DNA of 64,000 bases from an uncultured Dehalococcoidia bacterium (GTDB lineage Bacteria; Chloroflexota; Dehalococcoidia; Lucifugimonadales; UBA1123): contig OY282441.1 of NCBI GenBank assembly GCA_958296105.1, positions 2,873,800-2,937,799 of the forward strand, in the 5' to 3' direction. The translations under genes and the position numbers were made by a program. This document shows positions 11,098 through 36,978 of the stretch, one piece after another (position 1 is the first letter of the stretch; each line of letters starts with the position of its first letter). The notes under the pieces are model-generated. The model did no database searches and had not been told where the DNA came from. It saw only the letters and a program-made list of their open reading frames with translations.

Positions 11098-12858
11098 ATG
11101 AGTAAGACGACCATCGCCCTGCTGCCCATCGTCCTGCTGCCCATCGTCCTGATGGCTGTTACAGCTACAGCCCTTGTCGCGCCGCGCGTTTCGCTCGCCC
11201 AGTCCAGCCCGGTGAATGTGGACGTGGACAGCGTCGACATCACCACCAACGACGTTCTCACGGTGACGGTGACGGTGGTCGAGCATAGCGTATCGCACCT
11301 TCCGGAGTTCCCGAACATAGACGGACTGACGCTTGTCGGCAGCAGTCGCTCGTTCACGCGCACTTACGAGAACGGCTCCTTCACCACGAGGGCAAAGTTC
11401 ATCTACAGATTCCAGCCCACGCGCGCGGGTCGGATAGAGATAGACCCCGTCACCGTCAGGCTGGACAGCGGCGTCTACACCTCCAGCCCCATCACGATCA
11501 CGGTGACTCGCGCCCCCATCCCCCCCATGCCTATGGCGCCCCGCGCGCGCGACACCCTGCCGAGGCTGCCCGATCTGCTCGGACAGAACTACTTCGCAGA
11601 GGCGGAAGTGGATGACGAGACCCCCTACATAGGCGAGCAGATTACACACACGTTCAAGTTCTACTCCACCGACAGCCTGAGCAGGCCCACGTATCGCGCG
11701 CCCGACTTCGCGGGATTCTGGAACGCCGGCGAACGCCCCGAGACCACCGACTCGGCTACCAATTCGGGCCGCCGCTATCTCGTCACCGAGATAGATACCA
11801 TACTCTTCCCCGCCGTCGCGGGAGACACCGAGATCGAACCCGGCCTGATGATCGTGCCGGCGGGCATGTTCGGCTCGATCAGGGCGGAGTTCCGTTCGGA
11901 TCCGGTGAAGCTCGCAGTCAGGCCCCTTCCCCCGAACGAACCCGCCACCTTCGGAGGAGCGGTGGGCAGGTACGACATCGCGGCGGGCGTGGACGTGAAG
12001 ACGACCGAGATCGGAGATCCCGTAAAGCTGACGGTGGTCGTCTCCGGACATGGCAACTTCAGCGCGCTGCCAGAGCCGATCTGGACGGACGCCCCGGGCT
12101 GGCGCGCCTATGATGGCGAGGTGTCCACGCGCGCTTCGGTCTCCGATGGCAAGCTGCTCGGCGTCAAGAGCTACGAACGGGTGCTGATTCCCGAAGTAGC
12201 GGGCGTACTCGAGACGCCCTCCGTGGAGTTCTCGTACTTCGACCCTGATCTGGAGGAGTACGTGACAGTGGCGGCAGACCCTATCTCGGTGTTCGTGGAG
12301 CCGGGCGCGAGCGGCGCGGCGAGTCCGCTTCCGACCGAAGGAGCGGCGGATCAGTCCGCCATAACAGACATCAGGCACATCAAGCCAGCTCCGGGCAGGC
12401 TGGGCGCGCGCCGCGAAGCGCTCGTCTCGAACCCGCTGTACCTGACGCTGTGGGGACTGCCGCTGATTGCGGTGGGCGGACTGCTCGGCTGGCGCGCCGC
12501 GCAGAGGAGAAGAGCGGCGCGAGAGGCGGCGCGAGGCCCTGCCAGAGCCAGAGAGATGGCGCTGGCGCGCCTGTCGAGCGCGACCTCTGAAGACTCCATA
12601 GCAGACGTTGCCGCGCTCGCGCTTCACGGCTACCTGAGCGCGGCGCTGGGCAGGCAGACGTCCGGGCTTCCTGCAAGTGAAATCCTCTCGCTGGTCGAAG
12701 ATCGCGGAGCGGCCCACGAGACTTCCGCTATGCTCGCGCAGACTCTCGGCATTCTGGACGAGATGCGATTCGCGCCCCCCGAACTGGAGAGAGACGCATC
12801 TATGGCGCGTGACGTGGCGGAGGTGGTGAGGAGACTCGGCGCGGAGATGCGCCAGTGA
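11098..12858 (+). CDS. batD: BatD-like membrane protein (aerotolerance/oxygen tolerance family)
   Basis: 586 residues from ATG 11098, with GGGGAG 6 nt upstream; longer in-frame starts overlap batC and lack such a site. A signal peptide (residues 1-36) contains the doubled LLPIV caused by a 15-bp tandem duplication at 11119-11148. A long beta-rich extracytoplasmic region with repeated Ig-like segments follows, then a transmembrane helix (PLYLTLWGLPLIAVGGLLGW, about 444-463) and a basic helical cytoplasmic tail. Position and topology match BatD, the largest periplasmic-side Bat component. Coupled to the next gene by GTGA. Confidence 0.85.
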   Translation: MSKTTIALLPIVLLPIVLMAVTATALVAPRVSLAQSSPVNVDVDSVDITTNDVLTVTVTVVEHSVSHLPEFPNIDGLTLVGSSRSFTRTYENGSFTTRAKFIYRFQPTRAGRIEIDPVTVRLDSGVYTSSPITITVTRAPIPPMPMAPRARDTLPRLPDLLGQNYFAEAEVDDETPYIGEQITHTFKFYSTDSLSRPTYRAPDFAGFWNAGERPETTDSATNSGRRYLVTEIDTILFPAVAGDTEIEPGLMIVPAGMFGSIRAEFRSDPVKLAVRPLPPNEPATFGGAVGRYDIAAGVDVKTTEIGDPVKLTVVVSGHGNFSALPEPIWTDAPGWRAYDGEVSTRASVSDGKLLGVKSYERVLIPEVAGVLETPSVEFSYFDPDLEEYVTVAADPISVFVEPGASGAASPLPTEGAADQSAITDIRHIKPAPGRLGARREALVSNPLYLTLWGLPLIAVGGLLGWRAAQRRRAAREAARGPARAREMALARLSSATSEDSIADVAALALHGYLSAALGRQTSGLPASEILSLVEDRGAAHETSAMLAQTLGILDEMRFAPPELERDASMARDVAEVVRRLGAEMRQ

Positions 12859-32032: not shown

Positions 32033-32782
32033 TCAGCTTGCTTCGAGGGTAGCGCCGCCATCGACCACCAGAACTTGGCCTCTTATCATTTCCGCGTCCG
32101 GCGAGCATAGGAAGGCGACCGCCTTGGCTATGTCGGCTGCGGTGACCATTCTGCCGGCGGGTATGTTCCTGCCGGCTTCCAGCATATCCTGTTTGGTTGG
32201 GAAGTGGTCGAGCGCTTGGGTATCCACGTATCCTCCCGATACCGCGTTTACCGATATGCCTCTTGGGGCAAGCTCCACGGCCAAGTAGCGAGTCACCGCT
32301 TCGAGAGCGGATTTGGATACGCCGACCGAGAAGTAGAAGGGCAAGACGCGGCGCGACCCTTCGCTGGTGATATTGACGATATGCCCGCCGTCGCGCATGA
32401 GTTCGCACGCCTCGACAGAGCAGAGCCAAGCGGCCTTGGCGTTGACGTTGAGAGTCCAGTCCCAGTGTTTGGCTTCCAATTCGAGAGCCGGACGCTGGAC
32501 GCCCGTGGCAGCGTTGTTGACGAGGATATCCAGCCTGCCGAACTCCGTATCCACAGCCTCGAACAGCGCTGAAATCTTGGACTGGTCGCCGAGATGTGCG
32601 CGCGTCCGGAGACATCGGACGCCGAGCGACTCGATCTCTTCGGCGGTCTCAGCGGCGGCGCGGTGGTTTCTGAGGTAGTTGAAAGCGACGTCCGCCCCGC
32701 GCCCGGCCAGGTCCATAGCGATTGCCTTGCCGATTCCGCGCGATCCGCCGGTGACGAGGGCTACTTTGCCGTCGAGTCTCAA
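32033..32782 (-). CDS. fabL: enoyl-[acyl-carrier-protein] reductase III, FabL type
   Basis: 249 residues from TTG 32782, with GGGAGG about 8 nt upstream. Although it looks like a general SDR (VTGGSRGIGKA, NNAATG), it carries FabL hallmarks: HWDWTLNVNAKA, Y-x6-K in YFSVGVSKSALEAVTRYLAVEL (given in parts), NAVSGGYVDTQALDHFP and AGRMV, closely resembling my recollection of Bacillus FabL. It reduces enoyl-ACP with NADPH and is insensitive to triclosan in Bacillus. It is the gene downstream of the coiled-coil array and completes the plsX-fabG fatty-acid block. Confidence 0.88.
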   Translation of the reverse strand: MRLDGKVALVTGGSRGIGKAIAMDLAGRGADVAFNYLRNHRAAAETAEEIESLGVRCLRTRAHLGDQSKISALFEAVDTEFGRLDILVNNAATGVQRPALELEAKHWDWTLNVNAKAAWLCSVEACELMRDGGHIVNITSEGSRRVLPFYFSVGVSKSALEAVTRYLAVELAPRGISVNAVSGGYVDTQALDHFPTKQDMLEAGRNIPAGRMVTAADIAKAVAFLCSPDAEMIRGQVLVVDGGATLEAS

Positions 32783-32798
32783 AATCCAACCCTCCCGA

Positions 32799-32817
32799 AC
32801 GGGGACTCCTGCCCCGT
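32799..32817 (-). terminator. hairpin directly after the coiled-coil array
   Basis: ACGGGG (32799-32804) and CCCCGT (32812-32817) flank a 7-nt loop, starting 3 nt after the stop codon of the last array gene and ending 17 nt before the fabL start. Without a T-run it may be a processing or partial termination site that separates array from fabL expression. Confidence 0.5.
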
Positions 32818-32819
32818 CG

Positions 32820-33161
32820 TCATCCGTTGATCGTCAGCGTGACTATGGCGGCGATCAGCGCGGCGATGATGACGAACATGCCCGCGCCGACCATGATAGC
32901 CATGGCCTTCAGCCACCCTTCCAGCCTGTCCATACGCCCGCCCAGCTCGTTGATGCGCCCACTTAATTCTTCGTGGTTGGCCTGAGCCAGAGCATGATTG
33001 GCCTGAATCAGCTCACGATTGGCTTGAATGAGAGCGTTCGTTGCCTCGTGGTTGGCTTGAATGAGAGCGAGCGCCGCCTCGTGGTTAGCTTGAACCAGAT
33101 CGCGCAGAGCCTCGACCGATTCTCGCGTTGCGACTTCGCGCTCGACTGTGGGCATTGTCAT
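32820..33161 (-). CDS. array gene 9: tail-anchored coiled-coil protein, 113 aa
   Basis: Last gene of the array. Module order in residues: 11-11-7-7-7 (43 in all), beginning LVQANHE instead of LIQANHE, then LIQANHEATNA, LIQANRE, LIQANHA, LAQANHE. Full junction with INELGGR, then the membrane helix. It is the only copy ending in TGA rather than TAA, because the last codons read AAC GGA TGA where the others have AAC GGG TAA; a hairpin follows 3 nt later. Confidence 0.85.
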   Translation of the reverse strand: MTMPTVEREVATRESVEALRDLVQANHEAALALIQANHEATNALIQANRELIQANHALAQANHEELSGRINELGGRMDRLEGWLKAMAIMVGAGMFVIIAALIAAIVTLTING

Positions 33162-33167
33162 GTTACG

Positions 33168-33617
33168 TTACCCGTTGACTGTCAGCGTGACTATGGCGGC
33201 GATCAGCGCGGCGATGATGACGAACATGCCCGCGCCGACCATGATGGCCATGGCCTTCAGCCACCCTTCCAGCCTGTCCATGCGCCCACCCAGTTCGTTG
33301 ATGCGTCCACTTAATTCTTCGTGGTTGGCCTGAATCAGAGTGAGCGCCGCCTCATGGTTGGCCTGAGCCAGAGCATGGTTGGCCTGAATCAGTTCACGGT
33401 TGGCTTGAATGAGAGCGTTCGTTGCCTCGTGGTTGGCCTGAATCAGTTCACGGTTGGCCTGAATCAGAGCGTGCGTCGCCTCGTGATTGGCTTGAATCAG
33501 TTCACGGTTGGCTTGAATGAGAGCGTTCGTTGCCTCGTGGTTGGCCTGAATCAGATCGCGCAGAGCCTCGACCGATTCTCGCGTTGCGACTTCGCGCTCG
33601 ACTGTGGGCATTGTCAT
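33168..33617 (-). CDS. array gene 8: tail-anchored coiled-coil protein, 149 aa (longest)
   Basis: Longest copy: modules 11-7-11-7-11-7-7-11-7, 79 residues. The first six modules repeat the 11-7 alternation seen in gene 7, and the last ones (LIQANHA, LAQANHEAALT, LIQANHE) recall genes 5 and 9. So it looks like a fusion of the two neighbouring designs. At 0.15 nm per residue the variable rod would be about 12 nm. Full junction with INELGGR and a VNG terminus. Confidence 0.85.
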   Translation of the reverse strand: MTMPTVEREVATRESVEALRDLIQANHEATNALIQANRELIQANHEATHALIQANRELIQANHEATNALIQANRELIQANHALAQANHEAALTLIQANHEELSGRINELGGRMDRLEGWLKAMAIMVGAGMFVIIAALIAAIVTLTVNG

Positions 33618-33623
33618 GTTTCG

Positions 33624-33998
33624 TTACCCGTTGATCGTCAGCGTGACTATGGCGGCGATCAGCGCGGCGATGATGACGAACATACCCGCGCCGACCATGA
33701 TCGCCATGGCCTTCAGCCAGCCTTCCAGCCTGTCCATGCGCCCGCCCAGTTCGTTGATACGCCCACTTAGTTCTTCGTGGTTGGCCTGAATCAGAGTGTT
33801 CGTTGCCTCATGGTTGGCCTGAATCAGTTCACGGTTGGCTTGAATGAGAGCGTTCGTCGCCTCGTGGTTAGCCTGAATCAGTTCACGGTTGGCTTGAATG
33901 AGAGCGTGCGTCGCCTCGTGATTGGCTTGAATCAGATCGCGCAGAGCCTCGACCGATTCTCGCGTTGCGACTTCGCGCTCGACTGTGGGCATTGTCAT
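33624..33998 (-). CDS. array gene 7: tail-anchored coiled-coil protein, 124 aa
   Basis: Modules 11-7-11-7-11-7 (54 residues), a strict alternation giving an 18-residue superrepeat (18 residues over five helical turns). The 11-mers differ at two positions: ATHA, ATNA, ATNT. Full INELGGR junction, ING terminus. It shares its first 54 variable residues almost exactly with gene 8, which points to a recent neighbour duplication. Confidence 0.85.
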   Translation of the reverse strand: MTMPTVEREVATRESVEALRDLIQANHEATHALIQANRELIQANHEATNALIQANRELIQANHEATNTLIQANHEELSGRINELGGRMDRLEGWLKAMAIMVGAGMFVIIAALIAAIVTLTING

Positions 33999-34004
33999 GT
34001 TACG

Positions 34005-34292
34005 TCACCCGTTGACTGTCAGCGTGACTATGGCGGCGATCAGCGCGGCGATGATGACGAACATGCCCGCGCCGACCATGATGGCCATGGACTTCAGCCA
34101 CCCTTCCAGCCTGTCCATGCGCCCGCTCAGTTCCTCATGGTTGGCCTGAATCAGTTCACGGTTGGCTTGAATGAGAGCGAGCGTCGCCTCGTGGTTGGCC
34201 TGAGCCAAAGCATGGTTGGCCTGAATCAGATCGCGCAGAGCCTCGACCGACTCTCGCGTTGCGACTTCGCGCTCGACTGTGGGCATTGTCAT
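34005..34292 (-). CDS. array gene 6: tail-anchored coiled-coil protein, 95 aa (shortest)
   Basis: Shortest copy: modules 7-11-7-7 (32 residues), and the only one that starts with a 7-mer (LIQANHA). The INELGGR heptad of the junction is missing, so ELSGR joins MDRLEGW directly. The last helix before the membrane reads WLKSM rather than WLKAM, the only substitution in this stretch among the nine. Confidence 0.85.
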   Translation of the reverse strand: MTMPTVEREVATRESVEALRDLIQANHALAQANHEATLALIQANRELIQANHEELSGRMDRLEGWLKSMAIMVGAGMFVIIAALIAAIVTLTVNG

Positions 34293-34298
34293 GTTACA

Positions 34299-34631
34299 TT
34301 ACCCGTTGATCGTCAGCGTGACTATGGCGGCGATCAATGCGGCGATGATGACGAACATGCCCGCGCCGACCATGATAGCCATGGCCTTCAGCCACCCTTC
34401 CAGCCTGTCCATGCGCCCGCTCAATTCTTCGTGGTTGGCCTGAATCAGAGCGAGCGCCGCCTCATGGTTGGCCTGAGCCAGAGCATGGTTGGCCTGAATC
34501 AGATCGTGGAGAGCCTCGTAGTTGGCTTGAATGAGAGCGTTCGTCGCCTCGTGGTTAGCTTGAATCAGATCGCGCAGAGCCTCGACCGATTCTCGGGTTG
34601 CGACTTCGCGCTCGACTGTGGGCATTGTCAT
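34299..34631 (-). CDS. array gene 5: tail-anchored coiled-coil protein, 110 aa
   Basis: Modules 11-11-7-11-7 (47 residues), including the distinctive 11-mer LIQANYEALHD shared with gene 4. It differs from gene 4 by exactly one inserted 11-residue step (LAQANHEAALA plus LIQANHE instead of LAQANHE). Junction lacks INELGGR. Confidence 0.85.
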   Translation of the reverse strand: MTMPTVEREVATRESVEALRDLIQANHEATNALIQANYEALHDLIQANHALAQANHEAALALIQANHEELSGRMDRLEGWLKAMAIMVGAGMFVIIAALIAAIVTLTING

Positions 34632-34637
34632 GTTACA

Positions 34638-34937
34638 TTACCCGTTGATCGTCAGCGTGACTATGGCGGCGATCAGCGCGGCAATGATGACGAACATGCC
34701 CGCGCCGACCATGATCGCCATAGCCTTCAGCCATCCTTCCAGCCTGTCCATGCGCCCACTTAATTCTTCGTGGTTGGCCTGAGCCAGAGCATGGTTGGCC
34801 TGAATCAGATCGTGGAGAGCCTCGTAGTTGGCTTGAATGAGAGCGTTCGTCGCCTCGTGGTTAGCCTGAATCAGATCGCGCAGAGCCTCGACCGATTCTC
34901 GGGTTGCGACTTCGCGCTCGACTGTGGGCATTGTCAT
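34638..34937 (-). CDS. array gene 4: tail-anchored coiled-coil protein, 99 aa
   Basis: Modules 11-11-7-7 (36 residues): LIQANHEATNA, LIQANYEALHD, LIQANHA, LAQANHE. Junction lacks INELGGR, as in genes 5 and 6, so these three adjacent copies share one ancestral deletion of a whole heptad. Confidence 0.85.
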   Translation of the reverse strand: MTMPTVEREVATRESVEALRDLIQANHEATNALIQANYEALHDLIQANHALAQANHEELSGRMDRLEGWLKAMAIMVGAGMFVIIAALIAAIVTLTING

Positions 34938-34943
34938 GTTACA

Positions 34944-35252
34944 TTACCCGTTGACTGTCAGCGTGACTATGGCGGCGATCAGCGCGGCGATGATGACGAA
35001 CATGCCCGCGCCGACCATGATAGCCATGGCCTTCAGCCATCCTTCCAGCCTGTCCATGCGCCCGCCCAGTTCGTTGATGCGCCCGCTTAATTCTTCATGG
35101 TTGGCCTGAGCCAACTCACGGTTAGCCTGAATCAGTTCACGGTTGGCTTGAATGAGAGCGTGCGTCGCCTCGTGGTTGGCTTGAATCAGATCGCGCAGAG
35201 CCTCGACCGATTCTCGGGTTGCGACTTCGCGCTCGACTGTGGGCATTGTCAT
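34944..35252 (-). CDS. array gene 3: tail-anchored coiled-coil protein, 102 aa
   Basis: Modules 11-7-7-7 (32 residues): LIQANHEATHA, LIQANRE, LIQANRE, LAQANHE. It is gene 2 minus one LIQANRE heptad. The junction has INELGGR, so total length exceeds gene 6 by seven although the variable part is equally long. Confidence 0.85.
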   Translation of the reverse strand: MTMPTVEREVATRESVEALRDLIQANHEATHALIQANRELIQANRELAQANHEELSGRINELGGRMDRLEGWLKAMAIMVGAGMFVIIAALIAAIVTLTVNG

Positions 35253-35258
35253 GTTACG

Positions 35259-35588
35259 TTACCCGTTGACTGTCAGCGTGACTATGGCGGCGATCAGCGC
35301 GGCGATGATGACGAACATGCCCGCGCCGACCATGATCGCCATGGCCTTCAGCCACCCTTCCAGCCTGTCCATGCGCCCGCCCAGTTCGTTGATGCGCCCG
35401 CTTAATTCTTCATGGTTGGCCTGAGCCAACTCACGGTTGGCCTGAATCAGTTCACGGTTGGCCTGAATCAGTTCACGGTTGGCCTGAATGAGAGCGTTCG
35501 TTGCCTCGTGGTTGGCCTGAATCAGATCGCGCAGAGCCTCGACCGATTCTCGGGTTGCCACTTCGCGCTCGACTGTGGGCATTGTCAT
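35259..35588 (-). CDS. array gene 2: tail-anchored coiled-coil protein, 109 aa
   Basis: Modules 11-7-7-7-7 (39 residues), with three consecutive LIQANRE heptads after LIQANHEATNA and a final LAQANHE. INELGGR present. Three identical 21-bp units in a row are an obvious substrate for slippage, giving gene 3 by loss of one. Confidence 0.85.
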   Translation of the reverse strand: MTMPTVEREVATRESVEALRDLIQANHEATNALIQANRELIQANRELIQANRELAQANHEELSGRINELGGRMDRLEGWLKAMAIMVGAGMFVIIAALIAAIVTLTVNG

Positions 35589-35594
35589 GTTACG

Positions 35595-35981
35595 TTACCC
35601 GTTGATTGTAAGTGTGACTATGGCAGCGATCAATGCGGCGATGATGACGAACATGCCCGCGCCGACCATGATCGCCATGGCCTTCAGCCATCCTTCCAGC
35701 CTGTCCATGCGCCCGCCCAGTTCGTTGATGCGCCCGCTTAACTCTTCGTGGTTGGCCTGAATCAGATCGTGGAGAGCCCCGTAGTTGGTCTGAATCAGAG
35801 TGTTCGTCGCCTCACGGTTGGCTTGAATCAGGGCGAGCGTAGCCTCGTGGTTAGCCTGAGCCTGAGCTTGGTTGGCTCGAATGAGAGCGTTCGTCGCCTC
35901 GTGGTTGGCCTGAATCAGATCGCGCAGAGCCTCGACCGATTCTCGCGTTGCCACTTCTCGCTCGACTGTGGGCATTGTCAT
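35595..35981 (-). CDS. array gene 1: tail-anchored coiled-coil protein, 128 aa (promoter-proximal)
   Basis: First transcribed copy. Modules 11-7-11-11-11-7 (58 residues), the most degenerate set: LIRANQA, QAQANHEATLA, LIQANREATNT and LIQTNYGALHD occur only here. Greater divergence at the end of the array is what unequal crossing-over predicts. Its ATG has no strong ribosome binding site (GGTAG 5 nt before). INELGGR and ING terminus are present. Confidence 0.85.
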   Translation of the reverse strand: MTMPTVEREVATRESVEALRDLIQANHEATNALIRANQAQAQANHEATLALIQANREATNTLIQTNYGALHDLIQANHEELSGRINELGGRMDRLEGWLKAMAIMVGAGMFVIIAALIAAIVTLTING

Positions 35982-36225
35982 GTTTCACTACCAATTTCGC
36001 GCCTGCCTCGCGCCGGAGGGTCGCACGTCGGCATTGTACCACATCCGCCAAAGGTCACTTGCTCGCCATGAGATCCGCGTTCCACGTCGTACTCGGGCTG
36101 AGTCAGCAGTGTGAGACGGTTGGCATCGGCCGGAACGCCGCAGTTGGCGAAGCCGAAACTGGGAGATCCTCGGAACCGGATCCACGGGAGAAGTAGGCTG
36201 GCGGGAATGCTCCGAAAGCGCCTTC
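35982..36225 (-). promoter_or_regulatory. 244-bp leader of the array with candidate -10 element
   Basis: Gap between fabG and array gene 1. On the minus strand TGTGGTACAAT gives an extended -10-like TACAAT at 36033-36038, about 50 nt before the first array ATG; no good -35 box was found 16-18 bp upstream. No coding sequence, repeat or terminator is evident, so it is unclear if the array has its own promoter or is read through from fabG. Confidence 0.4.
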
Positions 36226-36978
36226 TCAGATGGCCATTCCGCCGTCGACGCTGACGATCTGGCCAGTCATGTACTTGGCCTTCTGGCTGGCGATGAACGC
36301 GACGAGATGGGCTACGTCGTCCACTTCCCCGAAGTGTCCCTGCGGGATCCACGTCATAATCGTATCTTTGGTCTTTTGCGGCAGCACGTCAACGGTGTCG
36401 GTGCTGATGTAGCCGGGAGTCACGGTGTTTACGGTAATGCCGCGAGTGGCGACCTCTTTGGCGAGCGCCTTGGTGAAGCCGATCATTCCGGCCTTGGACG
36501 CAGAGTAGTTGACCTGCCCGATGTTGCCCCTAATCCCGACCACAGAGCCTATGTTGATGATCCTGCCCCATCGCCTTCGGATCATCTGGCGGACGACGGC
36601 TCTGGTGCAGTAGAACATGCCGTTAAGGTTCGTGGCGATTACGCTGTCCCACGCTTCATCCGACATCCGCACCAGCAGACTGTCGCTGATTATGCCGGCG
36701 TTGTTGACCAAGATGTCTATGCGGCCGAAGCGCTTCGAGACTTGCTCGACCATGCTGGACACTTGGCCCAAGTCGCTGACGTCTGCCTGCACCGCGAACG
36801 CCTCCACGCCCTGGGATTCGAGCGTATCGACGGTGATGGCGGCTTGGTCAGGCGAGCTGTTGTAGTTGACAGCCACATGTACGCCCATCTCGCCAAGACG
36901 CAGCGCCACCGCCCTGCCAATACCTTTCGACGCGCCCGTGACCAGCGCGAAGCGTCCGTCGATGTCAGACTTGCCCAA
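36226..36978 (-). CDS. fabG: 3-oxoacyl-[acyl-carrier-protein] reductase
   Basis: 250 residues from TTG 36978, with GGAGG 4-5 nt upstream. SDR with VTGASKGIGRA (cofactor), NNAGI, the Ser at about 141 (NIGSVVG) and YSASKAGMIGFTKALAKE with Y-x3-K. The strict FabG-like sequence, NTVTPGYI and the position 12 bp after plsX identify the fatty-acid elongation ketoreductase. No acpP follows; instead the coiled-coil array begins 244 bp further on. Confidence 0.93.
   Translation of the reverse strand: MGKSDIDGRFALVTGASKGIGRAVALRLGEMGVHVAVNYNSSPDQAAITVDTLESQGVEAFAVQADVSDLGQVSSMVEQVSKRFGRIDILVNNAGIISDSLLVRMSDEAWDSVIATNLNGMFYCTRAVVRQMIRRRWGRIINIGSVVGIRGNIGQVNYSASKAGMIGFTKALAKEVATRGITVNTVTPGYISTDTVDVLPQKTKDTIMTWIPQGHFGEVDDVAHLVAFIASQKAKYMTGQIVSVDGGMAI

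Follow-up and report, generated by a model that had tools for sequence, protein, structure and literature searches.

Nine tandem genes for predicted tail-anchored coiled-coil stalk proteins of unequal length in an uncultured Dehalococcoidia bacterium

In the CCDC90-like/DUF1640 proteins (PF07798; MCUR1, CCDC90B), an ATK-type beta-layer motif opens a coiled-coil stalk, which ends in a C-terminal membrane anchor. To our knowledge, no function has been established for bacterial tail-anchored stalks of the beta-layer kind. The beta-layer has the consensus [aliphatic]-A-T-K-[polar]-[DE], is trimeric, and is located at the start of the DUF1640 stalk; layers with isoleucine at a and asparagine at d (I@a/N@d) characterize trimeric stalks, and in mixtures of heptads and hendecads the mean period stays near the straight-helix value (PMC4786415). 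Heptads of the I@a/N@d kind and beta-layer motifs also occur in trimeric autotransporter stalks and in the alpha-beta coiled coils of Tcar0761 (DUF3782) (PMC4786415). Here, a stretch of 64,000 nucleotides (nt) from the genome of an uncultured Dehalococcoidia bacterium (the window, to whose full length all plain coordinates refer) was analyzed. At 32820-35981, read on the minus strand, it carries an array of nine genes whose small products share a coiled-coil stalk and a predicted C-terminal anchor with CCDC90/DUF1640 proteins, but differ from them in forming a nine-gene tandem array and in having no N-terminal head, only 9 residues preceding the neck motif VATRES. The autotransporter and Tcar0761 coiled coils differ from the window proteins in not being tail-anchored, and the autotransporter stalks are also surface-exposed.

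On balance, and with somewhat better than even confidence, the locus is read as the product of a tandem expansion, specific to this lineage, of a gene for a small tail-anchored coiled-coil stalk protein; the stalks would be oligomeric, probably trimeric, and cytoplasmic. Nine complete open reading frames (ORFs), each running from ATG to stop, lie head to tail, confirming the original prediction of nine intact paralogs, none of them broken. Their products measure 95-149 aa, all nine lengths being unequal: gene 1 (35595..35981; 128 aa; rod units of 11, 7, 11, 11, and 11 residues), gene 2 (35259..35588; 109 aa; 11, 7, 7, 7), gene 3 (34944..35252; 102 aa; 11, 7, 7), gene 4 (34638..34937; 99 aa; 11, 11, 7), gene 5 (34299..34631; 110 aa; 11, 11, 7, 11), gene 6 (34005..34292; 95 aa; 7, 11, 7), gene 7 (33624..33998; 124 aa; 11, 7, 11, 7, 11), gene 8 (33168..33617; 149 aa; 11, 7, 11, 7, 11, 7, 7, 11), and gene 9 (32820..33161; 113 aa; 11, 11, 7, 7). 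All eight intergenic spacers are exactly 6 bp. The genome is a single 3.18-Mb contig, estimated to be 97% complete. Assembly collapse of the array is not obvious from its sequence, and a fresh assembly duplication is argued against by the ends of the copies, which differ pairwise by 2-12 of 177 nt. A terminator-like hairpin 3′ of gene 9 was considered and rejected, its folding being no better than that of shuffled sequences (z 0.6).

The nine genes encode real proteins under purifying selection, since the differences between their ends are almost exclusively synonymous. Among the 59 alignable end codons, 15 vary synonymously and 2 conservatively (A/S, I/V); the synonymous share expected at random is ~26%, and the excess has a P of about 1e-7. 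Averaged over copy pairs, the synonymous (pS) and nonsynonymous (pN) proportions in the end codons are 0.124 and 0.006, respectively (pN/pS 0.047). The ends diverge by 3.6%, with variable sites in both ends distributed 3/0/15 over codon positions 1/2/3. The 15:2 excess and the low pN/pS support the earlier proposal that selection maintains all nine copies. Plus-strand ORFs over the array, including one of 328 aa, were dismissed as genes: they mirror the coding repeat, and the variation falls on third positions of the minus-strand frame.

The two ends of the proteins are all but frozen, while the middles are modular. The N-terminal 22 residues (21 by the first count) are identical in all nine copies, which begin MTMPTVEREVATRESVEALRDL. 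Only two positions (A/S and I/V) are variable among the C-terminal 37 residues, so that every copy ends in RMDRLEGWLK[A/S]MAIMVGAGMFVIIAALIAAIVTLT[I/V]NG. Seven residues immediately before them, RINELGG, are absent in three of the nine (genes 4, 5, and 6), and the common C-terminal part thus amounts to about 37-44 residues. Common N-termini, near-identical ends, and differing middles had been predicted, as had a coiled-coil-type rod and a membrane helix near the C-terminus, and each was recovered. Each rod strings together units of two sizes, 7 residues (IQANREL type) and 11 residues (IQANHEATNAL type), a scheme that accommodates all 39 complete units (18 of 7 residues and 21 of 11). Asparagine occupies unit position 4 without exception (39/39), and isoleucine is usual at position 1. 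Hydrophobic periodicity lies at 3.62-3.68, significant in eight of nine rods, and the AlphaFold monomer is a single unbroken helix over residues 5-101 (pLDDT 87). The predicted membrane segment, a C-terminal hydrophobic helix, stops about 6 residues short of the C-terminus, as read from the sequence.

The 7- and 11-residue units correspond to heptads and hendecads, and their asparagine at position 4, usually with isoleucine at position 1, parallels the I@a/N@d layers found in trimeric stalks; together with the VATRES neck, which resembles the beta-layer consensus, these positions point to a parallel oligomer, probably a homotrimer. Arginine and lysine precede the C-terminal helix and no charge follows it, so the N-terminus is predicted to be cytoplasmic (N-in). 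A single message would cover the array genes, with coupled translation starts, as the 6-bp spacers suggest, and each protein would enter the membrane post-translationally via its tail, leaving its N-terminus in the cytoplasm. Computed stalk heights range from about 8.1 to 16.1 nm (0.148 nm per residue); bound to the inner membrane, the stalks may thus project from it by about 8-16 nm and serve as scaffolds or spacers. Where 21- and 33-bp repeats are duplicated or deleted, stalk length would change while the hydrophobic seam is kept, and the array was most likely amplified and length-diversified by recombination. In its architecture, the family fits a headless CCDC90/DUF1640-like stalk, a membership that profiles do not support: PF07798 had no match to the window proteins at E 1 (four copies) or E 0.05 (two more), and a search of the window's own genome with it yielded zero matches within the nine-gene array. 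The best PDB match of the window proteins is 6h9l (EVATRESVEALR versus EMATKEDIEALR in 6h9l, E 0.0017), a prokaryotic relative of MCUR1 and CCDC90B reported in the work of Adlakha et al. 2019 on CCDC90.

Several results weigh against this stalk reading. The 6h9l alignment falls in low-complexity coil, and coil-biased matches of such size are weak. VATRES deviates from the beta-layer consensus at two of six positions, R replacing K and S replacing D/E, and the AlphaFold monomer contains no beta-layer, a structure that requires a trimer. No curated family reaches its cut-off for the window proteins, and comparison by hhalign gave the window family a probability of 0.3% with profile A2, of the four-gene-array family described below, and 7% with the broader profile A3, the latter describing small tail-anchored proteins of EER.SRLEG..HLATKAD type.

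Profile searches with array copies reached no known family, and Pfam, NCBIfam, PHROGs, and PADLOC assigned none to the window proteins. Searches of 250 genomes from the order and 400 from the phylum revealed no stalk-protein homologue, and neither did searches of named genome contigs, viral contigs, or phages; among plasmids, the sole match, to a collagen-like protein, was weak and of low complexity. Weak single-sequence matches in G010, G028, and G051 were discarded, a full-length homologue being seen in none of them and the G010 match being a longer, soluble-looking coil protein. The layout had been likened to that of phage XhlA proteins, and it is indeed reminiscent of them, but XhlA (PF10779) is not among the profile matches of the window proteins, and the closest known class is that of the beta-layer/CCDC90 (DUF1640) tail-anchored stalks. 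That layout, with weak PHROG matches to hemolysin phrog_1193 (E 0.08-0.4), could be taken to indicate a phage-derived lysis or defense accessory (XhlA/holin-partner-like or membrane defense); however, there is no phage, viral-contig, or PADLOC homologue and no phage gene adjoins the array, and this origin is the least credible of those considered.

Bdr proteins of Borrelia, the other analogue named in the original prediction, have a C-terminal membrane helix. They resemble the window family in having many paralogues with repeat-number variation (PMC3303823) and are its analogue at the level of organization, but the bdr genes are scattered over cp32 and linear plasmids rather than placed head to tail. 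Near-identical ends and shuffled modular middles would also suit a variation reservoir, in which recombination among the copies diversifies an expressed one, in the style of antigenic variation. Such a role is very improbable, given that all nine genes are complete with starts and stops, that there is no single expression site, and that the predicted N-in topology conceals the rod from the outside.

The array occupies a lineage-specific insertion in a conserved gene cluster, entirely minus-strand, with the order MaoC-PlsX-SDR-[array]-SDR. Its upstream neighbor is an SDR/FabG-like gene of the MaoC-PlsX-SDR-SDR cluster (36226..36978), and its downstream neighbor a second SDR/FabG-like gene (32033..32782). 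The two SDR genes directly adjoin, without the array, in each of the eight relatives examined, of which three are congeners and five more distant (in one, contig L034 stops within the second SDR gene). In the congeners G002 and G003, the stop of the upstream SDR gene overlaps the ATG of the downstream one (ATATGAGG), versus an apparent TTG start at 32782 in the window. Compared with the empty site in congeners, the insertion measures 3,447 bp (32778..36228) and is flanked by a 4-bp direct repeat, TGAG (36228-36225 and 32781-32778), its junctions reading GGCCATC[TGAG]AAGG... and ...GGATTT[TGAG]ACTCGACGG. No terminal inverted repeats were seen at its edges on inspection, only the 4-bp repeat, and a mobile-element origin is not claimed. 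The 244 bp that separate gene 1 from the stop of the upstream SDR gene (35982..36225) form a leader that is unique in the genome, and a consensus promoter scan of this leader found none.

Arrays of like design occur elsewhere. Searching the same genome with the Pfam CCDC90-like profile pointed to a second, sequence-unrelated array (L051:8782-9999; G000:C1:660781-661998) of four tail-anchored coiled-coil paralogues (86, 82, 89, and 111 aa) with common ends MTTQTDDRPSTEERVSRLEGAYDHLATKADV and a C-terminal helix, flanked by an MFS gene and an amidase gene. These two genes lie a few hundred bp apart without the array in congener G001, and 715 bp apart in G003 with nothing matching the array proteins. 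At least five other Chloroflexota genomes have arrays of 3-5 genes with near-identical ends and length-varied rods, whose products are members or look-alikes of the CCDC90/DUF1640-like class of tail-anchored beta-layer stalks. The Caldilineaceae genome G250 (OY282381.1) carries five CCDC90-like stalk genes (L230:3011-6483; 145, 211, 156, 145, and 185 aa) with ~230-bp spacers, besides which it has a pair in tandem (L231) and around a dozen paralogues dispersed elsewhere; one protein of this five-gene array exceeds the PF07798 cut-off (43.8 versus 33.5 bits). Its rods consist almost wholly of 7- and 11-residue units, and the pair also has 14-residue pieces. Genome G199 has three tandem genes (L233:5731-6819; 97, 130, and 101 aa) and a pair (L234), with rods built on the 11-residue unit RLEGKIDAMNE; congeneric genomes have one or two copies. 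Three tandem genes each are present in G192 (79, 72, and 86 aa), in G016 (one with a divergent C-terminus), and in G020 (one with a different N-terminus). The A3 profile matches 48 of 247 genomes of the order, as well as many Chloroflexota and Latescibacterota metagenome-assembled genomes.

The window array thus shares tandem arrangement, near-identical ends, and unequal rods of 7/11-residue units with L230, L232, L233, and L051. The small Chloroflexota A3 proteins, which this genome also carries, likewise match the window family in size, rod units, C-terminal helix, and tandem arrays with near-identical ends, but their end sequences are unrelated by profile comparison and their arrays hold 3-5 genes rather than nine. 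The negative comparisons with A2 and A3 leave a shared ancestry with the other arrays unproven, and the arrays may have converged on one design. The original view that no such system had been described therefore holds in part: literature searches of open papers found no report of such arrays, while smaller arrays of the same design exist in related genomes and a known stalk class stands nearest.

Whether the graded lengths are themselves functional is a separate matter. In a true height series, homo-oligomeric stalks stepped in length from about 8 to 16 nm would be co-expressed and would set, or sense, how far cytoplasmic structures lie from the inner membrane; such series would have evolved repeatedly in Chloroflexota through expansion of unrelated tail-anchored stalk genes. 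Nine different lengths in nine copies, the strict unit grammar, and the frozen ends favor such a series. Against it, a related family in the G199 genus has a single copy in G189, G193, and G195, two in G200, and seven or so in G199, and varies in length; with just one or two copies in these relatives, a complete graded set is no general requirement, and a functional series, though possible, is unlikely. The same distribution favors selection for dose, in which the protein and its copy number are selected and rod lengths drift neutrally through recombination of 21/33-bp repeats, the graded lengths being a by-product. Also in favor of dose, two of the five Caldilineaceae array copies are equal in length, the rod units are ideally suited to recombination, and neither array of the window genome is present at the matching sites of the congeners examined. 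Yet all nine window copies are unequal in length, and unit size and the asparagine at position 4 are kept without exception, so that constraint applies to the kind of unit in a rod, if not to how many there are. Dose falls just short of an even chance and is ranked clearly above the functional series. A third alternative, in which proteins of unequal length co-assemble through the common neck and anchor into staggered or bulged stalks in many combinations, draws on the fact that the nine copies have identical necks and membrane segments, and on the tandem order, which suggests co-translation; however, parallel coils whose ends are identical but whose rods differ in length would lose register, and such mixing is improbable.

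The membrane-anchored coiled-coil stalk is of a known kind; what is new is its occurrence in large tandem sets with stepped lengths, recurring in one phylum. Its recurrence with unrelated end sequences argues that the design is either useful or easily generated, and the results suggest a recurring way of building membrane-stalk families in related bacteria, one that can be surveyed across genomes. Arrays that vary stalk length alone, with neck and anchor frozen, offer a ready-made experiment on the role of the stalk, and also inform the evolution of coiled-coil length in seam-preserving steps of 7 and 11 residues.

Other loci carry related features. A lone 240-aa protein of similar design, with a long rod of LRSEMNANIEG units, adjoins a histidine-kinase-like gene (L052:4386-5108). 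Three tandem genes (L242:5174-7137; 249, 111, and 262 aa) share the N-terminus MPRSAPVVSL and several internal ATKDD beta-layer motifs, the end of the middle gene being different. At L071:1492-2112, LATKDD neck repeats are fused to a nuclease-like-looking C-terminal domain (compare DUF3782/PD-(D/E)XK) with no Pfam match above cut-off, a fusion whose sequence suggests that the neck module may be common to other systems. Finally, DNA elements repeated in many copies (CACCCTCACCCTAGCCCTCTCCC...GAGGGAGAGGGG), each with an internal dyad symmetry, lie between genes at L051:14550-15094 and 11764-12092.

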